This document shows positions 26,648-36,183 of a stretch of 36,183 nt of DNA, piece after piece; position 1 is the stretch's first letter; every line of letters begins with the position of its first letter. The DNA is from Acidobacteriota bacterium (GTDB taxonomy: Bacteria > Actinomycetota > Acidimicrobiia > ATN3): assembly GCA_003577105.1 (NCBI GenBank), contig QEUQ01000023.1:1-36183 (forward strand), given 5' to 3'. A program made the translations under genes and the position numbers. The notes beneath the pieces are model-generated. The model was given only the letters and a program-made list of their open reading frames with translations, was not told the DNA's origin and did not search any database.

Positions 26648-27619
26648 TCACGCTTCAAGAGCGTGAAGATGGTACTCCAACCTCATCGCCCTCTCGGCGT
26701 ACGGATCTCGGTCGATGGCATAGGTTGCATTGAAGTCGGAGGCAACTGGCAAGAGATCATAGATTTCGTTGCCCAGAGCCTTGAGGCTGAAGGTCTCTAC
26801 CACGCTCATGTCTGCGGGGTCGATCTTTGATACCCAGGCTCCAAGCAAGGCAAACTCGTCGAAGTCAGTGACCTTGGTCATTCGGTCAGTTGAGCGCGAA
26901 CGCGTTCGCTCCCCGCTTGAGCCTGCAATTAGGTACCCGTCGAGTTCGCATAGGCCCCTCGCGAAGCCTCCGATCTCGGCCTCGCCACTGCCCACTTTCA
27001 CCACTCTGCCCGGATCGGCGCAGACGTACAGGGCATCTTCGACTTCCAGAAGCGAGTGGGGAGAGATGAGTCCGTCGGCAATGACTTGCCCACTCTCGAC
27101 TGCCATCACGCCGCCTCCAGACGGCGGGAGGGAAGCCGAGATGCCCGCGGAACGGCACCATGTCATTGTCAGACCGTGGCTGGTGAACGCGACAGAGTTC
27201 ATGTGGCATTGGTCGCCTAGCTCAGCGAAGGTTCCGGGGAGTCTCCAAAGGAGCTGTTCCTCTTCGATTTCGGTCGGCGACTTGAGCTTCATCTCATATA
27301 GCTCGTCGGTGCCAGTACTCACGGCGACCAAGGTGTGGTCATCGCGAAAGACCATTGAGTGGACATCCTGAATGTGGCGGAAGTCGTACGCGGCCGCCAG
27401 CTCAAGAGTGACTTCATCGTAGATGTGAAGGCGGGGCCCTGGGCTCTGCGATTGGATTCCGACATATACATAGCCATTGCGGCTAGCCAGGCCGGCCGCG
27501 CCCTTGACGTCACTCGAAAACTGAAGGTCTACCCACCGGAAGGCCGACGTCTCAGGATCCAGCAAGCCCAGCACGAATTCGGGTACGAACCGCTCGTTAC
27601 AGAAGCTGATCAGGAGCAC
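26648..27619 (-). CDS. Propeller-like protein of unknown function, paralogue 1
   Basis: A 323-residue protein made of repeated beta-strand pairs typical of a beta-propeller-type fold. I do not recognise a named domain with certainty; DUF4915 or a related glycan-locus family is possible but unverified. It is clearly homologous to the protein at 32470-33459. Shared elements include LISF/LVSF at the N-terminus, VHSM/VHSL, LFWRLPGT-type motif (LLWRLPGT here), DQCHMNSVA (DQWHVNSIA in the other), SPHSL/CPHSL, GFARGLC, and DP..ERA..LE near the C-terminus. No signal peptide or membrane segment. The start is GTG 27619, 17 bases after the methyltransferase stop, with a weak ribosome binding site. A role in glycan assembly is inferred from location. 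Confidence 0.8.
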   Translation of the reverse strand: MLLISFCNERFVPEFVLGLLDPETSAFRWVDLQFSSDVKGAAGLASRNGYVYVGIQSQSPGPRLHIYDEVTLELAAAYDFRHIQDVHSMVFRDDHTLVAVSTGTDELYEMKLKSPTEIEEEQLLWRLPGTFAELGDQCHMNSVAFTSHGLTMTWCRSAGISASLPPSGGGVMAVESGQVIADGLISPHSLLEVEDALYVCADPGRVVKVGSGEAEIGGFARGLCELDGYLIAGSSGERTRSRSTDRMTKVTDFDEFALLGAWVSKIDPADMSVVETFSLKALGNEIYDLLPVASDFNATYAIDRDPYAERAMRLEYHLHALEA

Positions 27620-27636: not shown

Positions 27637-28773
27637 CTACCGCGGGCGCCTGGCAATGGCACGGGCCAATGACCGAGCCATTCGGTGAATAGCCGGATAC
27701 CTATTCAGAGTCTCATGTAAGCGATCAGCCGCCCGGTAGCCGGCACTAGACTCCATGACTTGCCGGAGTTCATGCAGCGCCTCTTCGGTCTTGGCCAATC
27801 GAGCCTTTGTGACTTCGATGTCGTCAAGGCGGCGCTTGATATCGGCTATGTATTCCTCTTTGATTGACAAGTCAGCCTGAAGGTGGCGGCGTTCAAGCTC
27901 GGCAACGTGAAGCGTCTCGGCTCGCGACTGGCGCGCTTCGCTCAAGTCATCTGTCATCTGACCGAGAAGTCGTTCGAGTTCGCGTACTTGCTCAAAGGCA
28001 CTTGCCGCGCGCTTCTCGGCATCAGCAAGCTGCGTTTCAGCCGAGCGAGCCTGACGGCTGAGAAGAGCCGCAATTCCCTTCTGGTCCGGTCGCATGCCTT
28101 CCGGGGATTCGAGAATCGCGCCGCTCGCGAAGACTACGAATTGATACGTGAGAGCATTGCAATCCGACAGTGCATCGTGGATTGTTTCGTCAGAGTGACG
28201 CGCCCTCGCAATCTCAAGTTGGGCCTCGTCGAGAGGGCGAGTCACATCCAATTCATCAATGATGCCGAGAAGCGCACCATCGAAAAGCTTTCTGATTCCC
28301 GGTTTGTCATAGAAACGGATGTGCTCGTGATCGAGCGGACCACCTTCTGTATAGGGAAATCGTCCATCTAGCAGTTCTAGCTTCACAGTGGCGTGTGCAA
28401 CATTGAAGGCTGATGCAACCACCACTCCGGCCGGGCGGAGGTGATTTCTCATCGCGCGAAGCGCATCTTCCGGATATCTCAGGCTCTCGAGCGCGTCCAG
28501 AATCAAGATTGCATCGAATTCGTTCTCGCCGAGCTCCGTGTGTAGATCGACGCTCTCCAGGTTGCCCGCGATTGCATGTCTGCAAACGCGAGAAAGTTCG
28601 CTTGTCTCCGACTTGTCTTGCTCAATGCACCAGACTTCGCAGGCTCTTCCGGCAAGTGCACTTGCCAGGCCAAAGTTGGTTGATCCCGCAACGAGGACCT
28701 TGCTTGCCGGCGGGACTGCAAGGGCCGCGATCGTCCGTGAGTCATTGAGAGTCGACAGATCCAGCTTGCTCAT
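27637..28773 (-). CDS. Methyltransferase with C-terminal coiled coil
   Basis: A 378-residue protein. Residues about 20-170 form a class I SAM-dependent methyltransferase-like fold: VLVAGSTNFGLASAL takes the place of the usual glycine-rich loop, ILILDALESLRYPEDALR the motif after strand 4, and LRPAGVVVAS the family's LKPGG equivalent. Residues about 232-342 are a long charged coiled coil, ending in a basic tail (RSLARAIARRPR). Such methyltransferase-coiled-coil architecture recalls WbdD-type proteins that cap and measure O-antigen chains. WbdD also has a kinase, which is absent here, so the analogy is only structural. The ATGA overlap with the upstream GT2 gene indicates coupling. Confidence 0.83.
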   Translation of the reverse strand: MSKLDLSTLNDSRTIAALAVPPASKVLVAGSTNFGLASALAGRACEVWCIEQDKSETSELSRVCRHAIAGNLESVDLHTELGENEFDAILILDALESLRYPEDALRAMRNHLRPAGVVVASAFNVAHATVKLELLDGRFPYTEGGPLDHEHIRFYDKPGIRKLFDGALLGIIDELDVTRPLDEAQLEIARARHSDETIHDALSDCNALTYQFVVFASGAILESPEGMRPDQKGIAALLSRQARSAETQLADAEKRAASAFEQVRELERLLGQMTDDLSEARQSRAETLHVAELERRHLQADLSIKEEYIADIKRRLDDIEVTKARLAKTEEALHELRQVMESSAGYRAADRLHETLNRYPAIHRMARSLARAIARRPR

Positions 28774-29951
28774 ATCCCGGCCTTGGACTGGGCTTGCAGC
28801 GAGTTGAGCAGCTGGCTCAGGACTTGACTGCGATCGACGGGAGCATGCTCAGGAAGCGCAATCACGTCCATCGGCGATTCTGCGTTGCCCTGCAGTTTGG
28901 AGAGATGCTGTGAAATTGCCTGGTCCGCCACGATCGCATAATCGTAATTGATCCCCGGTCGACTTAGGTGCCTATCGGGCTCTTCCCAGATCAAATTGAT
29001 GCCGAGGCGTCCAGCGCGAATGCGGTCGTCACCCGTGGCGCCGGATACCGACACCGACAAGGCTAGCCCTCTCGGTTCCTTGGGGAGCGATTGCAGATCT
29101 TCTGGTCTAAGCCCCACGGCAATGACCTTAGTTGGATAGCCGCGCGCCCTTTGGATCGCACTGTCGATCGAGATCGGGGAATCCGGCTCTCGGTCTTCGT
29201 GAGTTGCGATCAGGGCGGCCCACTTCTGCCGAAGGGTCCCAATGTGCTTCTGCACAAGAAACATCTTGTAGTCGCTCTCGGTGCTCGCCGACCGGAAGTG
29301 CATCAAGGCCGATCCCGGATCGAAGATCACGCGCTGTCCGGCCTGTTGAATCTTGAAGCACAGGTCAACATCTTCGTAGTAGCCGGGGAAATACTCCTCG
29401 TCCATGCCGCCGACCAGGTGCCAAGTTGAGTGCCGAACGAGGATCGAGCACGCCGAGCAGTAGTCCGCGTCGCGCAAGAAGTAGTACTGCGCGGATTCGA
29501 TATCGCGTCCGCTGTCAATTGAGCTGGTGACACCATCAGACCAGACAATTGCCCCGGCCTCTTGAATCGTGGAGTCCGGGTTGAATACGAGGCTCCCGAC
29601 AGCTCCCGCCTCCGGAATGCGATCAGCGGTCTCAACGAGTGACTCAAGCCATCCTCGGTAGACGATCGTGTCGTCATTGAGAAAGACAAGATAGTCGCCC
29701 CGAGCGAATTCGCTTGCTCGATTGCAGCCACCAGGAAAACCCAGATTCACGTTGGAGGTAATCACGCGTACCCGCTCGCCAAGGTCGGCTGTGGCATGTG
29801 TGATTTCCGGGTCGGCACCATTCAAGAGGAGGATGATTTCGTAGTTGAGATCTGAAGAGACGTTTTTTTCGATCGAATCTAGGCAAGCGAGAAGCATCTC
29901 AGGGTGATGCCGACTCAAGATCACGACCGAGGCGCGGATATCGGAGCTCAC
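28770..29951 (-). CDS. GT2 glycosyltransferase with an additional C-terminal Rossmann-like segment
   Basis: A 393-residue glycosyltransferase of family 2. The GT-A domain spans about 6-235: SVVILSRHHPEMLLACLDSI at the start, the nucleotide-sugar binding LNDDT around 91-95, and EDVDLCFKIQQAG near 191-203 with the late Glu-Asp of the family. The C-terminal 130 residues (about 265-390) look like half of a GT-B Rossmann fold (INLIWEEPDRHL, YDYAIVADQAISQHL). That would be an additional, probably non-catalytic, remnant. Start GTG 29951 overlaps the stop of the upstream large GT gene as GTGA. Acceptor and donor sugars are unknown. It is cytosolic and probably acts on a growing surface polysaccharide. 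Confidence 0.87.
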   Translation of the reverse strand: MSSDIRASVVILSRHHPEMLLACLDSIEKNVSSDLNYEIILLLNGADPEITHATADLGERVRVITSNVNLGFPGGCNRASEFARGDYLVFLNDDTIVYRGWLESLVETADRIPEAGAVGSLVFNPDSTIQEAGAIVWSDGVTSSIDSGRDIESAQYYFLRDADYCSACSILVRHSTWHLVGGMDEEYFPGYYEDVDLCFKIQQAGQRVIFDPGSALMHFRSASTESDYKMFLVQKHIGTLRQKWAALIATHEDREPDSPISIDSAIQRARGYPTKVIAVGLRPEDLQSLPKEPRGLALSVSVSGATGDDRIRAGRLGINLIWEEPDRHLSRPGINYDYAIVADQAISQHLSKLQGNAESPMDVIALPEHAPVDRSQVLSQLLNSLQAQSKAGI

Positions 29952-32407
29952 TGTCTGAGCGCGGAGTAAATCTTCTCGGTCAAGAAGCCTTCGTATTCGA
30001 TCGGCTGGGGCGCGCGAATTGCACTAGCTGACCTGCTTAGCTCCGAAGGATCATTCGCCAGCCGGGCGAGAAGCCGAGACAACTCATCCACATTGCCCGC
30101 TTCGACAAGGTAGCCGCCGTTGTGATCTCGAACAATCTCGGCCATGCCTCCGAGATTGGCCGCTATGACCGGTACTCCGGCGGCCAGGGAGCTTTGGACG
30201 ACAATCGACTGCGTTTCATTCCACGTCGAGGGAACCACTACCACGTCTGTTTCCCCAAGTATTGGGCCCAGCTCGCTGTATTCATATGGGCCATCAAAGT
30301 GAAAGCGTTCGTCATCAGCTGCTGCCACAATCAGTTCCTCTAGATATTCGGTCTCGTGGTAACAGTCACCGTGGATGTGAGCGTCAATCGGCGACTTTGC
30401 TGCCAGCTTCACTGCCTCGATGAGGACATGTGGCGCCTTATGCCTTTGAAGAGTGCCGAGGAACCTGACCCGAAGGCGGGAACCAGAAGCTGGCCGTTGC
30501 GAGATCTTCAGCACTGAGTAGTCGATGCCGGCAGAGATCTTGATCCAGTCCTCGGTATCAAATCCCTCATTGCTGAAGACTTCACGGACGAAATCTGTCG
30601 GGACGATAACGGCGTCTGCTGACGCAAGTTCGTTGCGGGCCCACTCATGTCGCTCTTCGCCAAGTGCCGTACCCACGCCGCAGACCAATTCACAATTCTT
30701 GCCGGCGTTGGATCCCTTACAAATCGTGCCGTCCGGCCGAATCATGTTGATCCGTGGGCAAGCGTAGAAGTAGTCGTGCAGGTGAATAACTACCGGTTTC
30801 CCGCACTCCTGGGCAACTTGGCGAGTTTCCGGGTAGACCAGCGCATGCATCAGGTGAATCACGTCGGGCTTGGCCGCGTCGATCGCGGCACGGATCGTTG
30901 CTGCGGTGGACTCGTCGTACCTGCACTCACTCGCACTGCTGTGTAGCCGCGTCGATCGCGGCTGGAGTACGCGAATTCCTTCGTGTATGTAGGCCTCCGG
31001 TTGCGCGGTCGTGTCGGGAGATGACGGTGGAGCCGAGAGCACGACTGCGTCATGGCCAATTGCCATCAACTGTGATGCGAGGTTCTGGGTGGCGCGTTCG
31101 ACGCCCGTTGGAAAGAAGGGGAGGTACTGGTGGACGACAAAGAGGATCCGCGTCGCGACATCTGCGGAAGCCGTAGTTGGAATCGAAACCGGAACCGGGG
31201 CAGGAGCTGGAGCCCGCTCCGGGACTTGGGCCTCCGCTTCAGCTGAGAGCGCCGATGCGTCGAGGACGTTGACCCTTTGGGCGAGGTCTCGCCAATGCCT
31301 TGCCGAGCGAGCCAAGTGGGCACCTCGCTCTGCCATTTCCCTGTACTTGCGTAGCGCGTAGACCATCTCAATCCGGTCATGAGTGCGAGCAGGATCTAGT
31401 CTCACAGGCGGCGAAGTTCCTGTATCGTCAGAGGCTGATGGCTTCGTTGGCACACCTGTCAGCTCGGCGAGCTTCTTGAAGTGCTCCGCAAGCGTCGTGC
31501 GATCGCGCTCAATCGTCTCGGAGAAATCCGGTGGAGATGCAAGTATCCACGCGAGTTTCTCGGCAAGCTCGGCCGCCGAAAAGAAAGCCAGGTCTTCCAG
31601 ATTCCGGTCGGCGAGGAACGCGCGAACCTCGGGATCGCGCCCGAAGGCCACAAATGGTGTGTTCTGTTGATGGGCAAACTGCGCTGAGTAGTACGACGAC
31701 GCCACCACTGCCCGAGCGCTGCCCACGCTCGCGAGAAGTTCGGTTGGGGTCTCGGTCAGCTCGATCTCGGGAACCCACCCAAGGTCAATGCCAACGCGCA
31801 GCATTGCGGCAGGCTCGGGGAGTCCAGACTCGACCGTGAGCCATCGGAGTTCCTTCGCCGAGAACGGCGCGAATGCTTCGGCTAGGCCCGCGCATTGCAC
31901 GACCGCGTTGTGTGTGAGGTGAGCGAGAACGACTTCGGTACCGGGGGCTCGCACTTTCTTGCCTGCGGCAAGTGCAGCCGAGACGCAAGGCACGACGACG
32001 ACGTCGAGTCCTGTCGCTTGGTCGACGCGGCTCTTGTCGGCGCCAGTGCGAACTGAGAGGTACAAGTAATCCTTTAGGTACTCGAGGCCGACGGCGCTCA
32101 ACACTCCTGCTGAATTGAGAATGTGTGGTCCCGGTATCCGAAAGTGGTCGAAATATGGGTCGCCAGGACCGTAGATGATCTCCCCTCCACCGACGATAAC
32201 TGGGGAATTCAATTCGTTGGTGACGAGCGGATCAAGTACTTCGAGGCTTGCATTTCGCATCCCGAAAAAGGCGGTCATGACTTCTCGAATTGCGCATTCG
32301 CCTGCCCCAAAGCGCCGCGTGTCGATTAGCAGACGAGCCGAGTTGGTCTTGGTTTTCGGACTGCTGAGTCCAGTAGTCCGCGATCTCGATGTCTTTGACT
32401 GCGTCAC
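29948..32407 (-). CDS. Pyruvyl-transferase-like domain fused to GT4 glycosyltransferase
   Basis: An 819-residue two-domain protein. The N-terminal module (about 23-320) resembles polysaccharide pyruvyl transferases: LLIDTRRFGAGECA, VIVGGGEIIYGPGDPYF, then a SSYYSAQFAH segment in the place where active relatives have S-x-HG. A helical link and Pro/Ala-rich linker (about 325-415) lead to a GT4 GT-B domain (about 420-815) with LFVVHQYLPFFPTGVERA, IHLHDYFYACPRINM, LRVRFLGTLQRHKAPHVL and the nucleotide-sugar motif PSTWNETQSIVVQSSLAAG. The open frame reaches 32476, which would overlap the divergent gene. GTG 32407 is chosen as the only in-frame start before the conserved strand. The N-terminal module is homologous to that of the gene at 33474-36183. 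Confidence 0.82.
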   Translation of the reverse strand: MTQSKTSRSRTTGLSSPKTKTNSARLLIDTRRFGAGECAIREVMTAFFGMRNASLEVLDPLVTNELNSPVIVGGGEIIYGPGDPYFDHFRIPGPHILNSAGVLSAVGLEYLKDYLYLSVRTGADKSRVDQATGLDVVVVPCVSAALAAGKKVRAPGTEVVLAHLTHNAVVQCAGLAEAFAPFSAKELRWLTVESGLPEPAAMLRVGIDLGWVPEIELTETPTELLASVGSARAVVASSYYSAQFAHQQNTPFVAFGRDPEVRAFLADRNLEDLAFFSAAELAEKLAWILASPPDFSETIERDRTTLAEHFKKLAELTGVPTKPSASDDTGTSPPVRLDPARTHDRIEMVYALRKYREMAERGAHLARSARHWRDLAQRVNVLDASALSAEAEAQVPERAPAPAPVPVSIPTTASADVATRILFVVHQYLPFFPTGVERATQNLASQLMAIGHDAVVLSAPPSSPDTTAQPEAYIHEGIRVLQPRSTRLHSSASECRYDESTAATIRAAIDAAKPDVIHLMHALVYPETRQVAQECGKPVVIHLHDYFYACPRINMIRPDGTICKGSNAGKNCELVCGVGTALGEERHEWARNELASADAVIVPTDFVREVFSNEGFDTEDWIKISAGIDYSVLKISQRPASGSRLRVRFLGTLQRHKAPHVLIEAVKLAAKSPIDAHIHGDCYHETEYLEELIVAAADDERFHFDGPYEYSELGPILGETDVVVVPSTWNETQSIVVQSSLAAGVPVIAANLGGMAEIVRDHNGGYLVEAGNVDELSRLLARLANDPSELSRSASAIRAPQPIEYEGFLTEKIYSALRQ

Positions 32408-32457
32408 GCGAGCTGCTTGCCTATTCGACGGGGGGAGAGTCGGGGAAATTGTGTACC

Positions 32458-32463
32458 TATAAT
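32458..32463 (+). promoter_or_regulatory. Perfect TATAAT -10 box, likely leaderless start of propeller paralogue 2
   Basis: TATAAT ends 6 bases before ATG 32470. Transcription would start at or next to the A of the ATG, and there is no Shine-Dalgarno sequence in front of it. No good -35 hexamer is visible at 17-18 bases upstream. The box lies in the 62-base gap between divergent genes. Confidence 0.6.
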
Positions 32464-32469
32464 TCCACG

Positions 32470-33459
32470 ATGCCACAACTCCTCGTCAGCTTCTTCAATC
32501 AGCTGCTCACGCCTAAGTTCTCATTGGGTGTGCTCGACTCTGGCTCGGGCGAGTTTCGATGGTTGGATCTTCAAGCGGACCAAGGTATTTCGGGGTGTGC
32601 AGGATTGGCCAGTCGGCGTGATCGAGTCTTTGTGGCCGCTCAGGCGGGCGGTACGGGACGGCTCCAGATTTATGCGATGCCCGAGTTCAAGCTCCTGTCG
32701 GTCTATGAGCTCCGGCACACACAAGCTGTCCACTCGCTGCTCGCTATTGATGACGGGCGAATTCTTGGTGTGGGAACTGGGAACGACGAGATTTACGAGT
32801 ACGTCGTTGTCAGCGATGAGGTGGTTGAAGAGCGGCTCTTCTGGAGGTTGCCCGGCACCCACCCGGGCTTTGGAGACCAGTGGCATGTGAATTCGATTGC
32901 TCCGTTGGGGGACGGCTTTGCTGTCTCCTACATGGCGCACGCGCTACCCAGTAATGATGATTATCAGTCCGGGGGGATCTTCTCGCTAGCCGACGGGGAG
33001 CTTCTCGCAACAGGCCTCAAATGCCCCCATTCCTTGATGAACTTTGACGGCCGCCTATATGTGGCCCACAACCCCGGAATGATCTCGGAGGTTGGAGGGG
33101 AGTCCGGCGAGGTTGGCGGGTTCGCGCGCGGGCTATGCCGGACAGGCTCCTCGCTCTTCGTCGGGGCAAGTGGCCACAGATGGCAGTCGCGTTCCACTCA
33201 GCGGGCATACATTGATCAGTACGAAGACTTTGTCGCCCAGGGCGCGAAGGTTGTTCAGGTCTCACTAGAGGGCTTCGATGTCATCCTGGAATTTGACCTG
33301 AGGGGTCTTGGCATCGAGGTATTCGAGGTAACTCCTGTTTGTATTGATCCAAGATCGGAGTACCTAATGCCAGGTGATCCCGTCGTAGAGCGTGCATGCG
33401 CTCTTGAGTTCGTTGCCGCCGGGTACCATCAGGCTGTTGAAGTCGACTGGAAAGTCTGA
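32470..33459 (+). CDS. Propeller-like protein of unknown function, paralogue 2
   Basis: A 329-residue protein homologous to the one at 26648-27619, with the same succession of short strands and shared motifs (LFWRLPGT, DQWHVNSIA, CPHSLMNF, GFARGLC, DPVVERACALE). ATG 32470 is chosen because homology begins exactly there (PQLLVSFFNQ versus LLISFCNE) and because of the adjacent TATAAT. The upstream open frame from 32389 overlaps the divergent GT gene. It is the only plus-strand gene between the two minus-strand pyruvyl-transferase-like/GT fusions, and it converges on the second one with a 14-base gap. No signal peptide; function unknown. DUF4915-like families are a possibility that needs a profile search. 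Confidence 0.8.
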   Translation: MPQLLVSFFNQLLTPKFSLGVLDSGSGEFRWLDLQADQGISGCAGLASRRDRVFVAAQAGGTGRLQIYAMPEFKLLSVYELRHTQAVHSLLAIDDGRILGVGTGNDEIYEYVVVSDEVVEERLFWRLPGTHPGFGDQWHVNSIAPLGDGFAVSYMAHALPSNDDYQSGGIFSLADGELLATGLKCPHSLMNFDGRLYVAHNPGMISEVGGESGEVGGFARGLCRTGSSLFVGASGHRWQSRSTQRAYIDQYEDFVAQGAKVVQVSLEGFDVILEFDLRGLGIEVFEVTPVCIDPRSEYLMPGDPVVERACALEFVAAGYHQAVEVDWKV

Positions 33460-33473
33460 CCGGGCAGCCGCTG

Positions 33474-36183
33474 CTAGATCCCCCTAACGAGCTGCTGGAT
33501 TAGTTCATCATCTTGGTCGTGCGCAGCAGCCGCATGGCCGATAGCCACTCCGAGAAATGAACCCATGAGTTGCGCGAGAAACGCTTCGCCTTCATCAGGT
33601 TGGCATGAGTCATGAACAGTGGCGAATTCGTCGAGGTGTGTGTTGGCGAGATGAGCCGTGATGTCCGAGGCCAGGATTTTCTCGACGCGTTCCGATCGGG
33701 ACTCATCCCCGGCCAAGTCACGCAAGTAGTCGGCTACATCTGCAAGCTCCTCATTGAGGATCACGTCGCGGTCGAGACTTGTCCCGATGCCATCCCGAGT
33801 TAGCGTCCCCATCGCCAATCGAACCTCGCCGAGGCGCCCGAGAAGGCTTTTTCGGTTCGAAGATCTGAGCGCCGAGTCAACTGCAGCAATGATGGGAATC
33901 GATGAGATGAGCACCTCGCCCAGGCTCCCCGGGGCCGCAAGGTCGAGGGAGGGATCCTCGAGGGCTTTCGCGGCATGAATCCTGTCGGCAACCTGTCGTC
34001 TCATGTGGTAGATCGCAGGTCTGTCATGTGAGTGGATCACCGCGGTGTTTCCGCAAAAGGCAACTCTCCACCCTGCTTGCATGGCTCTTACGGCAAAGTC
34101 CAGATCCTCGGCAAAGCGGGTCGGCCTGAAGCGAATCTCCTCCCAGGCCTCGCGTCGCATGGCCGAACAAACGTTGTCAACTGCGGCAGCCCACCTTCGC
34201 TTGTCCCCGTAAGCGGCATTGGCAAATGCCAGGTCATGTTCTGGAAAGACCATCGTCGAGTTGAGGTCGAGTGCCCTGTAGTGATGAAACGAGGTATAAG
34301 CCGCGTGCAGCCCGCAGCCGCTGTGCGGAATCTGTCGCGCGGAGCACGCGGCGATTTCGGGATTCGAAGCGAGCATAGATGTGAGATGCGCAAGAGCCTG
34401 GGTGCCGGCTGGTACCGCGTCTTGAGTCATGAATACCAGGTAGTCGCCTGTCGCAATCTCGGCCAGGAGGTTGCGGGTGCTCCCGTGGTTGTAGTCGTCC
34501 TGGGCGATGTGATTGACCTGTGCGCCGGCGCTCTCGGCAAGCTCGATGGTCGAATCTGTTGAGCCGGAGTCGATCACGATCAACTCCATTTTTTCTAACC
34601 CCGCCTGGCAATCCAGGGCATCGAGAGTGCGCTTGAACTCCGGTCCTGCGTTCCACGTTGGGATCAGGACCGATACGTTAAGGGAGTTGCCGGCGTTAGG
34701 TCTCGCCATGCGCTCGTCTGTGGCGGTGACGGCCGCAAACGCCGCATGGCGCCTGCTTCGATGCGTCGCCTCAATTGGCTCGCCGCGATTGGGCTGCTCG
34801 TGGTCTTCGGCCGGTTCGGAAGCATCACTGGTCCCGAGCGGTCTTCCGAGTAGTCGCTCGAGCGCCGGCCGGCCGCGCTCCTGATATCGCGGGGGAACCC
34901 GGTTCCACATCGCCTTCCCTAGCCGCTTGGTCAGCCGAAGCGCCTGACGCGAGAGGCGAGTTTCGGTCGCATGACGTAGCTCATTGTTCAGAAGAAATAG
35001 CTGGTGGGAAATACTTCCGAGGAACTCAGCTTGCCGTTGACCGGCAGCATTTGCCTGCTCGACTAACTCCCGGCTGATTGCGAGCTGTGCCTCAAGGCTC
35101 TCCGATTGAGCTTCGGCTGCTTCCGCCTTAGATCGCTCTTCATTGATCTTTCCGGAAAGGCTCGATAGCTGGTGGCGCAGATTGACAGATTCAGTTTCCG
35201 CGGATGTAGCTCGATCCAGGATCTCGGTTCGGCTACGGCGAGCATCGGCGGCCTGGCGCTCGAGATCGGCGGCTACTTGGCGCAGTCGCCTGACTTCATG
35301 GCCGATGTGACCGAGCTCGGTCATTGCCTGGCGATATGCGAGGCCGTGGAGAGTATCGAGAGTCGCGTGGGCTCGCGACCTCATGTCTATGCCGTCGACG
35401 CGTCTTTCGCTGGTTGGTTCTGGAGAGAGTCCAAGGAGGTCCGCAAGCTTTGCGAAGTGCGCATCCAATCTCTCTGAGTCGGCTTCGATTGTGCGGCTGA
35501 AGTCGGGTTGCACGTTGAAGATGCTCCCGAGGCGCTCTTTGAGTTCCGCGGTGGAGGAGAAGCCATGGCTATCGAGACCACGTTCGGCGAGGAATGCCTG
35601 GACCTTCGGTGGTCTTGAGAAAACGAGGAAGGGCACGTTGTGGGCATGGGCAAAGATTGCTCCGTGCAGCGAAGCGCAAATGAGGAGTCTGCACCGAGTG
35701 ATCGCGCCGAGCTTTTCTTGTGGCGTACTCGCACCGGTAGCCGAGATTTCACGGTCTAGGCCCGCGGCAATCCGAGCCATGGTTGCGCCGTCACCCGCAT
35801 ATGGAGTCAGCGGCAGCCAGAAGATCTCGTAGTCGGATAGGCCTGAGATGAGCTGAGGGAGACCCCTGCAGTGGTGAAGCGCGTTGTGGTGGAAGTGAAC
35901 AAGAAGTGTTCGTTCGGGGTCGATTTCATCGGGGGGAGCTGTTGGCGCAAGTCGCGTTGCGACGCATGGCGTGATCTCGGCGTCGGGGCGGACCCCCTTG
36001 ACGAGGGCATAGTCGGCCTCAGAGCGTACCGAGACATATTCGTAGTCTTTGAGGAAGTCAAGACCAATTGAGGTAGTCAGCCCAGCGGCATTGAGAATGT
36101 GCTTGCCTTCAAGCCTGAAAGCCTCATAAAAGGCATCACCGGGAGACCCGATCAGCTCCCCGCCCCCGACTACCACAGGCGCT
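33474..36183 (-). CDS. Pyruvyl-transferase-like domain, coiled coil and GT2 glycosyltransferase in one protein, N-terminus cut by window edge
   Basis: At least 902 codons, open to the right edge, so the true start is missing. The GTG at 36176 is internal, since PVVVGGGELIG matches PVIVGGGEIIYG inside its paralogue. Residues are counted from that GTG. 1-250: polysaccharide-pyruvyl-transferase-like domain with HILNAAG, SVRSEADY, LVHFHHNALHH and the conserved ICASLHGAIFAHAHNVPFLVF. 270-385: coiled coil. 385-495: basic, then disordered. 500-735: GT2 domain resembling rhamnosyltransferases (SVLIPTWNAG, VIDSGSTDST, MTQDAVP, FAEDLDFAVRAMQAGW). 740-900: helical acidic domain I do not recognise. It probably acts on surface glycan in the cytosol. 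The stop lies 14 bases from the convergent propeller gene. Confidence 0.83.
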   Translation of the reverse strand, partial: APVVVGGGELIGSPGDAFYEAFRLEGKHILNAAGLTTSIGLDFLKDYEYVSVRSEADYALVKGVRPDAEITPCVATRLAPTAPPDEIDPERTLLVHFHHNALHHCRGLPQLISGLSDYEIFWLPLTPYAGDGATMARIAAGLDREISATGASTPQEKLGAITRCRLLICASLHGAIFAHAHNVPFLVFSRPPKVQAFLAERGLDSHGFSSTAELKERLGSIFNVQPDFSRTIEADSERLDAHFAKLADLLGLSPEPTSERRVDGIDMRSRAHATLDTLHGLAYRQAMTELGHIGHEVRRLRQVAADLERQAADARRSRTEILDRATSAETESVNLRHQLSSLSGKINEERSKAEAAEAQSESLEAQLAISRELVEQANAAGQRQAEFLGSISHQLFLLNNELRHATETRLSRQALRLTKRLGKAMWNRVPPRYQERGRPALERLLGRPLGTSDASEPAEDHEQPNRGEPIEATHRSRRHAAFAAVTATDERMARPNAGNSLNVSVLIPTWNAGPEFKRTLDALDCQAGLEKMELIVIDSGSTDSTIELAESAGAQVNHIAQDDYNHGSTRNLLAEIATGDYLVFMTQDAVPAGTQALAHLTSMLASNPEIAACSARQIPHSGCGLHAAYTSFHHYRALDLNSTMVFPEHDLAFANAAYGDKRRWAAAVDNVCSAMRREAWEEIRFRPTRFAEDLDFAVRAMQAGWRVAFCGNTAVIHSHDRPAIYHMRRQVADRIHAAKALEDPSLDLAAPGSLGEVLISSIPIIAAVDSALRSSNRKSLLGRLGEVRLAMGTLTRDGIGTSLDRDVILNEELADVADYLRDLAGDESRSERVEKILASDITAHLANTHLDEFATVHDSCQPDEGEAFLAQLMGSFLGVAIGHAAAAHDQDDELIQQLVRGI

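Follow-up and report, generated by a model that had tools for sequence, protein, structure and literature searches.

A pyruvyltransferase-like head on a coiled-coil glycosyltransferase and its probably inactive copy on a neighbouring GT4 enzyme at an actinomycetotal contig end

Two glycosyltransferase fusions at the contig end

The stretch of DNA analysed here (36,183 nucleotides; hereafter the window) is the entire contig C102 of the host genome (G000; 2.87 Mb, 104 contigs). Most of the window is filled with housekeeping genes, such as those for RNase E/G, Obg, an amino-acid kinase with a PUA domain, and a LytR-type protein. A glycan cluster extends from 26.6 kb to the right contig end, and its genes lie on the minus strand except for one of two genes for DUF4915/TIGR03032 proteins. 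Copy A of these (26648..27619) is on the minus strand, and copy B (32470..33459, plus strand) is located between the two genes of interest, P1 and P2. The cluster also contains, both on the minus strand, genes for a methyltransferase with a C-terminal coiled coil (27637..28773) and a GT2 glycosyltransferase (28770..29951). The latter overlaps the stop of P1 by 4 bases, and the two probably belong to one transcription unit.

P1 (29948..32476, minus strand) encodes 842 residues counted from the first GTG. An alternative start at 32407 is plausible, as the start of the divergent DUF4915 gene is probably at 32470. The protein consists of a head (residues 46–345, 31442..32341), a linker (residues 346–440, 31157..31441) whose first part shares homology with the beginning of the coiled-coil region of P2, and a GT4 domain (residues 441–842, 29951..31156; PF00534, 2.5e-22; PF13439, 8.5e-13).

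P2 (33474..36183, minus strand) is cut by the contig end, and the 902 residues encoded in the window form an open fragment. The missing first ~47–60 residues (LLFDSVNDNTGDRAIGQVM...) were found at one end of C100, another contig of this genome; the ends of the two contigs abut with zero overlap. In the numbering of the fragment, the head (residues 1–258, 35409..36182) is followed by a predicted long helix or coiled coil (residues 267–404, 34971..35384), a GT2 domain (residues 503–740, 33963..34676; PF00535, 1.9e-15), and a C-terminal region. The linker contains heptad runs at residues 295–343 and 350–380, and the structural model has a single helix at 267–404 with a pLDDT of about 40–63; the full-length model, with a mean pLDDT of 35, is usable for this long helix only. 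The coiled coil is weakly predicted. A genome of the same order but of another family (G001) encodes a 919-residue P2 homologue, which keeps the whole architecture (39% identity over the full length and 56% in the head). About 60 residues of the coiled coil are missing from this homologue, and the coiled-coil prediction is weak there as well.

A sequence-only reading of this DNA had described two genes at 29948–32407 and 33474–36183 with a shared N-terminal module, joined to a GT4 domain in one protein and to a coiled coil and a GT2 domain in the other. Both genes are indeed open reading frames on the minus strand, both peptide pairs quoted as examples of the similarity are present in P1 and P2, and the GT4 and GT2 assignments were borne out; the linker of P2 is predicted to be helical. 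The N-terminal domains of P1 and P2 are 40% identical across 263 residues (E 2e-63), a similarity well above what chance would give.

Relationship and active-site residues of the heads

The heads had been called pyruvyl-transferase-like, and an HMM search had been suggested as a check. The P2 head passes the Pfam PS_pyruv_trans family (PF04230) with 5.7e-14 and 53.1 bits, for which the gathering cut-off is 25.3 bits, whereas the P1 head gave no match to PF04230 at E 0.1. A profile of the head subfamily matched the canonical PS_pyruv_trans profile over 257 columns in a profile–profile comparison (probability 98.8, E 7.8e-17), and P1 alone matched the C-terminal motif region of the canonical profile. 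As far as the sequences go, the P1 head is related to PS_pyruv_trans only via P2 and the subfamily profile. With this qualification for P1, a relationship between the two heads, and of both with polysaccharide pyruvyl transferases, is supported, and the glycosyltransferase folds that carry them are unrelated, as had been proposed. The homology does not stop with the head but reaches into the first part of the linker, with residues 40–401 of P1 aligning with residues 2–356 of the P2 homologue in G001. The P1 head was modelled as a GT-B fold comprising two Rossmann-like domains (pLDDT 87.4, pTM 0.88). A fold search with this model returned 145 PDB matches at E ≤ 0.001; among the matches listed (50 of 145), all 50 were GT-B-type enzymes, and pyruvyltransferases were absent. 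Sequence searches of the PDB with the head or with the head profile gave no relevant match.

Pyruvyltransferases conserve an NxGD motif, an RxxxS/T motif, and a histidine (PMC10629545), and in CsaB the residues R148, H308, and K328 are important for PEP (PMC10435577). The residues concerned are needed for, or implicated in, the binding of PEP or acceptor. In the alignment, the N, G, D, R, H, and K at the corresponding positions are all retained in P2, in its G001 homologue, and in all four relatives found outside (L021–L024). In P2, the NTGD motif is encoded on contig C100, and R53, H173, and K193 are present in the window fragment. In the P1 head, GAGE replaces NTGD (N to G57 and D to E60), the histidine is replaced with tyrosine (Y263), and the lysine with glutamate (E283); the arginine is retained (R143). 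Two features depart from the known enzymes beyond P1: both window heads keep the arginine corresponding to CsaB R148 but have aspartate at the S/T four residues downstream, and the position of CsaB R306 is serine or a similar residue across the head subfamily. Among the six other heads, 38 columns show no variation; P1 has lost 11 of them, including the N and D of NxGD, the histidine, and the lysine, while the other six heads show one to seven losses each out of 28–34 invariant columns. Four of the six known catalytic positions are among the losses in P1, a slight excess over expectation (hypergeometric p 0.047).

The loss of the catalytic N, D, His, and Lys from P1, and their retention in P2, suggest that the P1 head is probably a pseudoenzyme, catalytically dead though folded. 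The loss of a single residue is not proof, since the H308S variant of CsaB keeps some activity (PMC10435577), and therefore the argument for P1 rests on the combined losses. Alternatively, the P1 head may still be an enzyme with a changed reaction, using another donor or acceptor. The confidently predicted fold would fit such an enzyme, as would the 27 of 38 subfamily-invariant columns that are kept, among them the conserved arginine and the glycines of GGG, and the chemical relatedness of some of the substitutions (D to E). However, the changes of His to Tyr and Lys to Glu abolish two positive PEP-binding groups of CsaB, the N of NxGD is replaced with glycine, and the branch of the P1 head in the phylogenetic tree is about 2.4 times longer than that of P2 (1.19 versus 0.49). 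We consider an active P1 head unlikely. The scaffold role previously suggested for the heads therefore fits P1, in which catalytic residues are lost, but not P2, in which they are kept.

Origin of P1 and rarity of the head subfamily

The comparison with G001 provided insight into the origin of P1. Directly downstream of the P2 homologue, G001 has a stand-alone GT4 gene without a head, the product of which is 44% identical to the GT4 half of P1 across 402 residues and is thus its counterpart. The match of P1 to the G001 P2 homologue stops in the linker at residue 401, and the match to the G001 GT4 starts at residue 443. P1 is best explained, from these alignments, as a copy of the P2 head and linker start that was joined to the neighbouring GT4 gene. 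In the tree of the heads, P1 falls on its long branch outside the clade of P2 and G001 (support 93/93), yet a clade of P1 and P2 is not rejected (AU p 0.062), and therefore the tree does not fix the date of the duplication.

The head had been regarded as an interchangeable module. One duplication of the P2 head onto the ancestral neighbour GT4 accounts for both proteins, so that the heads are not freely interchangeable, and free shuffling among glycosyltransferase types was rejected for P1 and P2 in favour of this single event; the only other glycosyltransferase partner found in the head subfamily is GT2, in a Chloroflexi relative (L021). It may also be asked whether the fusion in P1 arose by chance, is decaying, or is a chimera made in assembly, in each case with a functionless head. 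P1 was found in one genome only and P2 sits at a contig break, as might be expected in that case, but P1 is an open frame of 842 residues, G+C and GC3 are even over its joint, its head is structurally intact by prediction, and the gene order matches that of G001, in which the GT4 gene lies downstream of P2. We regard this explanation as very improbable. Assembly error, which the sequence-only reading had named as a possible source of the fusions, was rejected, given that the composition is even over P1, the P2 architecture recurs in G001, and the order of P2 and GT4 is consistent.

The head subfamily is rare. Any match at E 0.001 was observed in seven of the 395 genomes of the class, with strong matches in three only, and a single genome each was found among 281 Chloroflexota genomes and 287 genomes of the phylum of Saccharibacteria. 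Four loci were found in a public genome set. No relative was found in viral contigs, and an initial scan of genome contigs with the P1 head yielded zero confirmed relatives. The Chloroflexi relative (L021) comprises the head, a helix, and two GT2 domains; the relatives from Saccharibacteria (L022) and Actinomycetota (L023) comprise the head and a short helical tail, and that from Saprospiraceae (L024) is the head alone. The Saccharibacteria relative adjoins genes for an ABC-2 permease and a Wzt_C ATPase. A Wzm/Wzt transporter with a carbohydrate-binding domain was not found in the window; the host genome has a Wzt_C ATPase gene on another contig. The presence of this gene was dropped as support, as 104 of 247 class genomes (42%) carry one.

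Proposed function and comparison with known systems

We infer from the retained residues and the domain order that P2 is a glycan-assembly protein of three parts, with a ketal-pyruvyltransferase at the N-terminus, a GT2 domain, and a long coiled-coil spacer between the two. By analogy, it most likely resembles the polymerase-terminator proteins of ABC-transporter-dependent polysaccharides. In WbbB and ORF6-O7, the order is terminator, coiled coil, and glycosyltransferase, the coiled coil carrying the terminator at its distal end (PMC11231755). In a corresponding mechanism, the GT2 domain of P2 would act at the membrane to lengthen a lipid-linked chain, and the head, held at the opposite tip of the coiled coil, would cap the chain with pyruvate from PEP once the chain reaches it, the helix acting as a ruler. 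The head and linker start of P2 would then have been copied onto the neighbouring GT4 gene to give P1, in which the copied head has lost residues of the PEP site and would be retained as a non-catalytic module. This module may dock the GT4 domain into the P2 complex through an interaction with the P2 head or through an acceptor that both heads bind. The homology, the domain architecture, the adjoining GT4 gene in G001, and the fate of the active-site residues in the two heads are observed, and they speak for this model, as do the head, helix, and two GT2 domains of the Chloroflexi relative and the transporter genes beside the Saccharibacteria relative. Pyruvyl transfer by P2, chain capping, the ruler, and docking by P1 are inferred. 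Against the model count the weak prediction of the coiled coil and its shortening in G001, the location of the Wzt_C gene away from the locus, the failure of the WbbZ pyruvate to set chain length, the departures of the heads at CsaB R306 and at the S/T position, the residual activity of CsaB H308S, and the lack of pyruvyltransferases among the 50 fold matches listed for the P1 head. The model as a whole, with P2 as a terminator-ruler-polymerase with a pyruvate cap and P1 as a dead head docking a GT4, is put forward tentatively, at somewhat less than even confidence.

Another possibility is that P2 is a bifunctional fusion that adds a sugar and pyruvylates that sugar or a branch residue in each repeat, without length control; the helix would then serve only to keep membrane-associated oligomers together, and the P1 head would be an accessory remnant. 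Pyruvate on every repeat is known for CsaB (PMC6801904, PMC10435577), and the helix of the G001 homologue is much shorter. In addition, fusions of PS_pyruv_trans and glycosyltransferases with other layouts are common in Actinomycetota. PF04230 was present in 95 of the 296 sampled Actinomycetota genomes, and inspection of large open reading frames identified fusions with WecG/TagA (L026, of the CsaB-WecG type), with GT2 (L080) or GT8 (L082) ahead of the PS_pyruv_trans domain, and with a GT4-like domain (L071), GT2 (L083), or a GT47-like region and GT2 (L084) behind it. Four further large candidates from the survey of the phylum (L068, L070, L072, and L073) were attributed to reading frames that are extended in GC-rich genomes and not to fusion. 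Such fusions are thus recurrent in Actinomycetota, and the earlier description of the combination as unusual is not supported. Against the bifunctional fusion, the Chloroflexi relative repeats the order of cap, helix, and GT2, as does L083 with a head of another kind. We consider such a fusion a possible but doubtful explanation.

In P2 and in the Chloroflexi relative, the candidate cap enzyme, spacer, and glycosyltransferase reside in one polypeptide, which makes the idea of chain length set by a pyruvate cap directly testable. P1 provides a clear case in which a sugar-modifying domain has lost catalytic residues after duplication while its predicted fold is kept on a different glycosyltransferase, and it would show how modifying enzymes turn into scaffolds in glycan assembly. 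A broader proposal, that pyruvate-capping terminator-ruler-polymerases occur in Actinomycetota and Chloroflexota and that a second, catalytically inactive cap domain brings a GT4 into the complex to give a multi-glycosyltransferase assembly with paired active and pseudo-pyruvyltransferases, seems to us somewhat unlikely.

Among known systems, the P2 head is like CsaB, WbbZ, and Pvg1p (PF04230) in its profile match and in the NxGD, Arg, His, and Lys of the PEP site. Unlike these enzymes, the head subfamily has no counterpart of the arginine R306 of CsaB and the window heads have an Asp/Glu-type residue at the S/T of RxxxS/T; moreover, the P2 head is fused to a helix and GT2, and the P1 head is without the N, D, His, and Lys. 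The combination of a pyruvyl transferase domain with a glycosyltransferase is shared with CsaB-WecG/TagA and the other Actinomycetota fusions (L026, L071, L080, and L082–L084), but these have other head subfamilies and other partners, and a duplicated dead head was seen in none of them. WbbY/WbbZ of Klebsiella pneumoniae O1b, which makes a terminal pyruvate, likewise brings a pyruvyltransferase and a glycosyltransferase polymerase to the chain end, as is proposed for P2; in contrast to P2, WbbY and WbbZ are separate proteins. WbbZ is the only proven terminal pyruvyltransferase, and its pyruvate does not determine chain length; control of length by pyruvate, proposed for other bacteria, is unvalidated (PMC10629545). 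WbbB (K. pneumoniae O12), ORF6 of O7, and WbdD/WbdA (O9a/O3) differ from the present locus in several respects: the candidate cap in P2 is pyruvate and not Kdo, methyl, or phosphomethyl, P2 has one GT2 and not two (the Chloroflexi relative has two), the P1/P2 locus is without a linked ABC transporter, and its second protein carries a duplicate cap domain that is probably dead. P2, its G001 homologue, and the Chloroflexi relative nevertheless share with these systems the arrangement of an N-terminal, putatively end-modifying enzyme, a predicted helix, and C-terminal glycosyltransferase modules.

Pyruvyltransferase-like domains in other genomes

A PS_pyruv_trans-like head followed by a helix and a GT2 domain was found in a different Actinomycetota family (L083, G592:C171). 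The position of the His motif in this head reads SSPDG, and the motif looks lost, as in P1, the window protein that joins a probable pseudo-pyruvyltransferase head to a GT4 domain. The sequence suggests that the L083 head is a second degenerate head that arose independently. Fusions of the CsaB-WecG/TagA type (~585 aa; L026, L038–L043, and L046), assigned by a Pfam check for L026 and by frame length for the others, all come from one actinobacterial family. In Saccharibacteria, a glycan-export cluster (L022:4804-11345) comprises genes for an ABC-2 permease, a Wzt_C ATPase, a head-family pyruvyltransferase, a WsaF-type GT4, an epimerase, and a GT2.

In the EX7E motif of GT4, the usual second Glu is Ser both in P1 (ETQSIVVQS) and in the stand-alone GT4 of G001, a genome of the same order (ETHSLVAES; L004:16341-17561).

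Genes around P1 and P2

P1 is flanked by two DUF4915/TIGR03032 proteins (window 26648-27619 and 32470-33459) sharing 40% identity, which are the only copies in the genome (G000); no copy was found in the G001 genome or in that of G079, of the same class. The pair possibly duplicated together with the heads. The literature collection searched contained no paper on DUF4915/TIGR03032.

At the end of contig C100 of G000 (L015:14106-16340), a GH94-superfamily gene lies immediately ahead of the start of P2, the protein with the GT2 domain, and an alpha-L-rhamnosidase gene lies farther upstream. A second PS_pyruv_trans gene in G000, canonical and stand-alone, is located away from the window (G000:C47:4269-4955, L018); the product of the adjoining gene has multiple membrane spans and resembles a flippase.

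Methyltransferase with a coiled coil

The gene run containing P1 and P2 also includes a gene (window 27637-28773) encoding a methyltransferase domain with a coiled coil behind it and a C-terminus that is basic. The protein is reminiscent of methyl-type chain terminators; no kinase domain was recognised in it.
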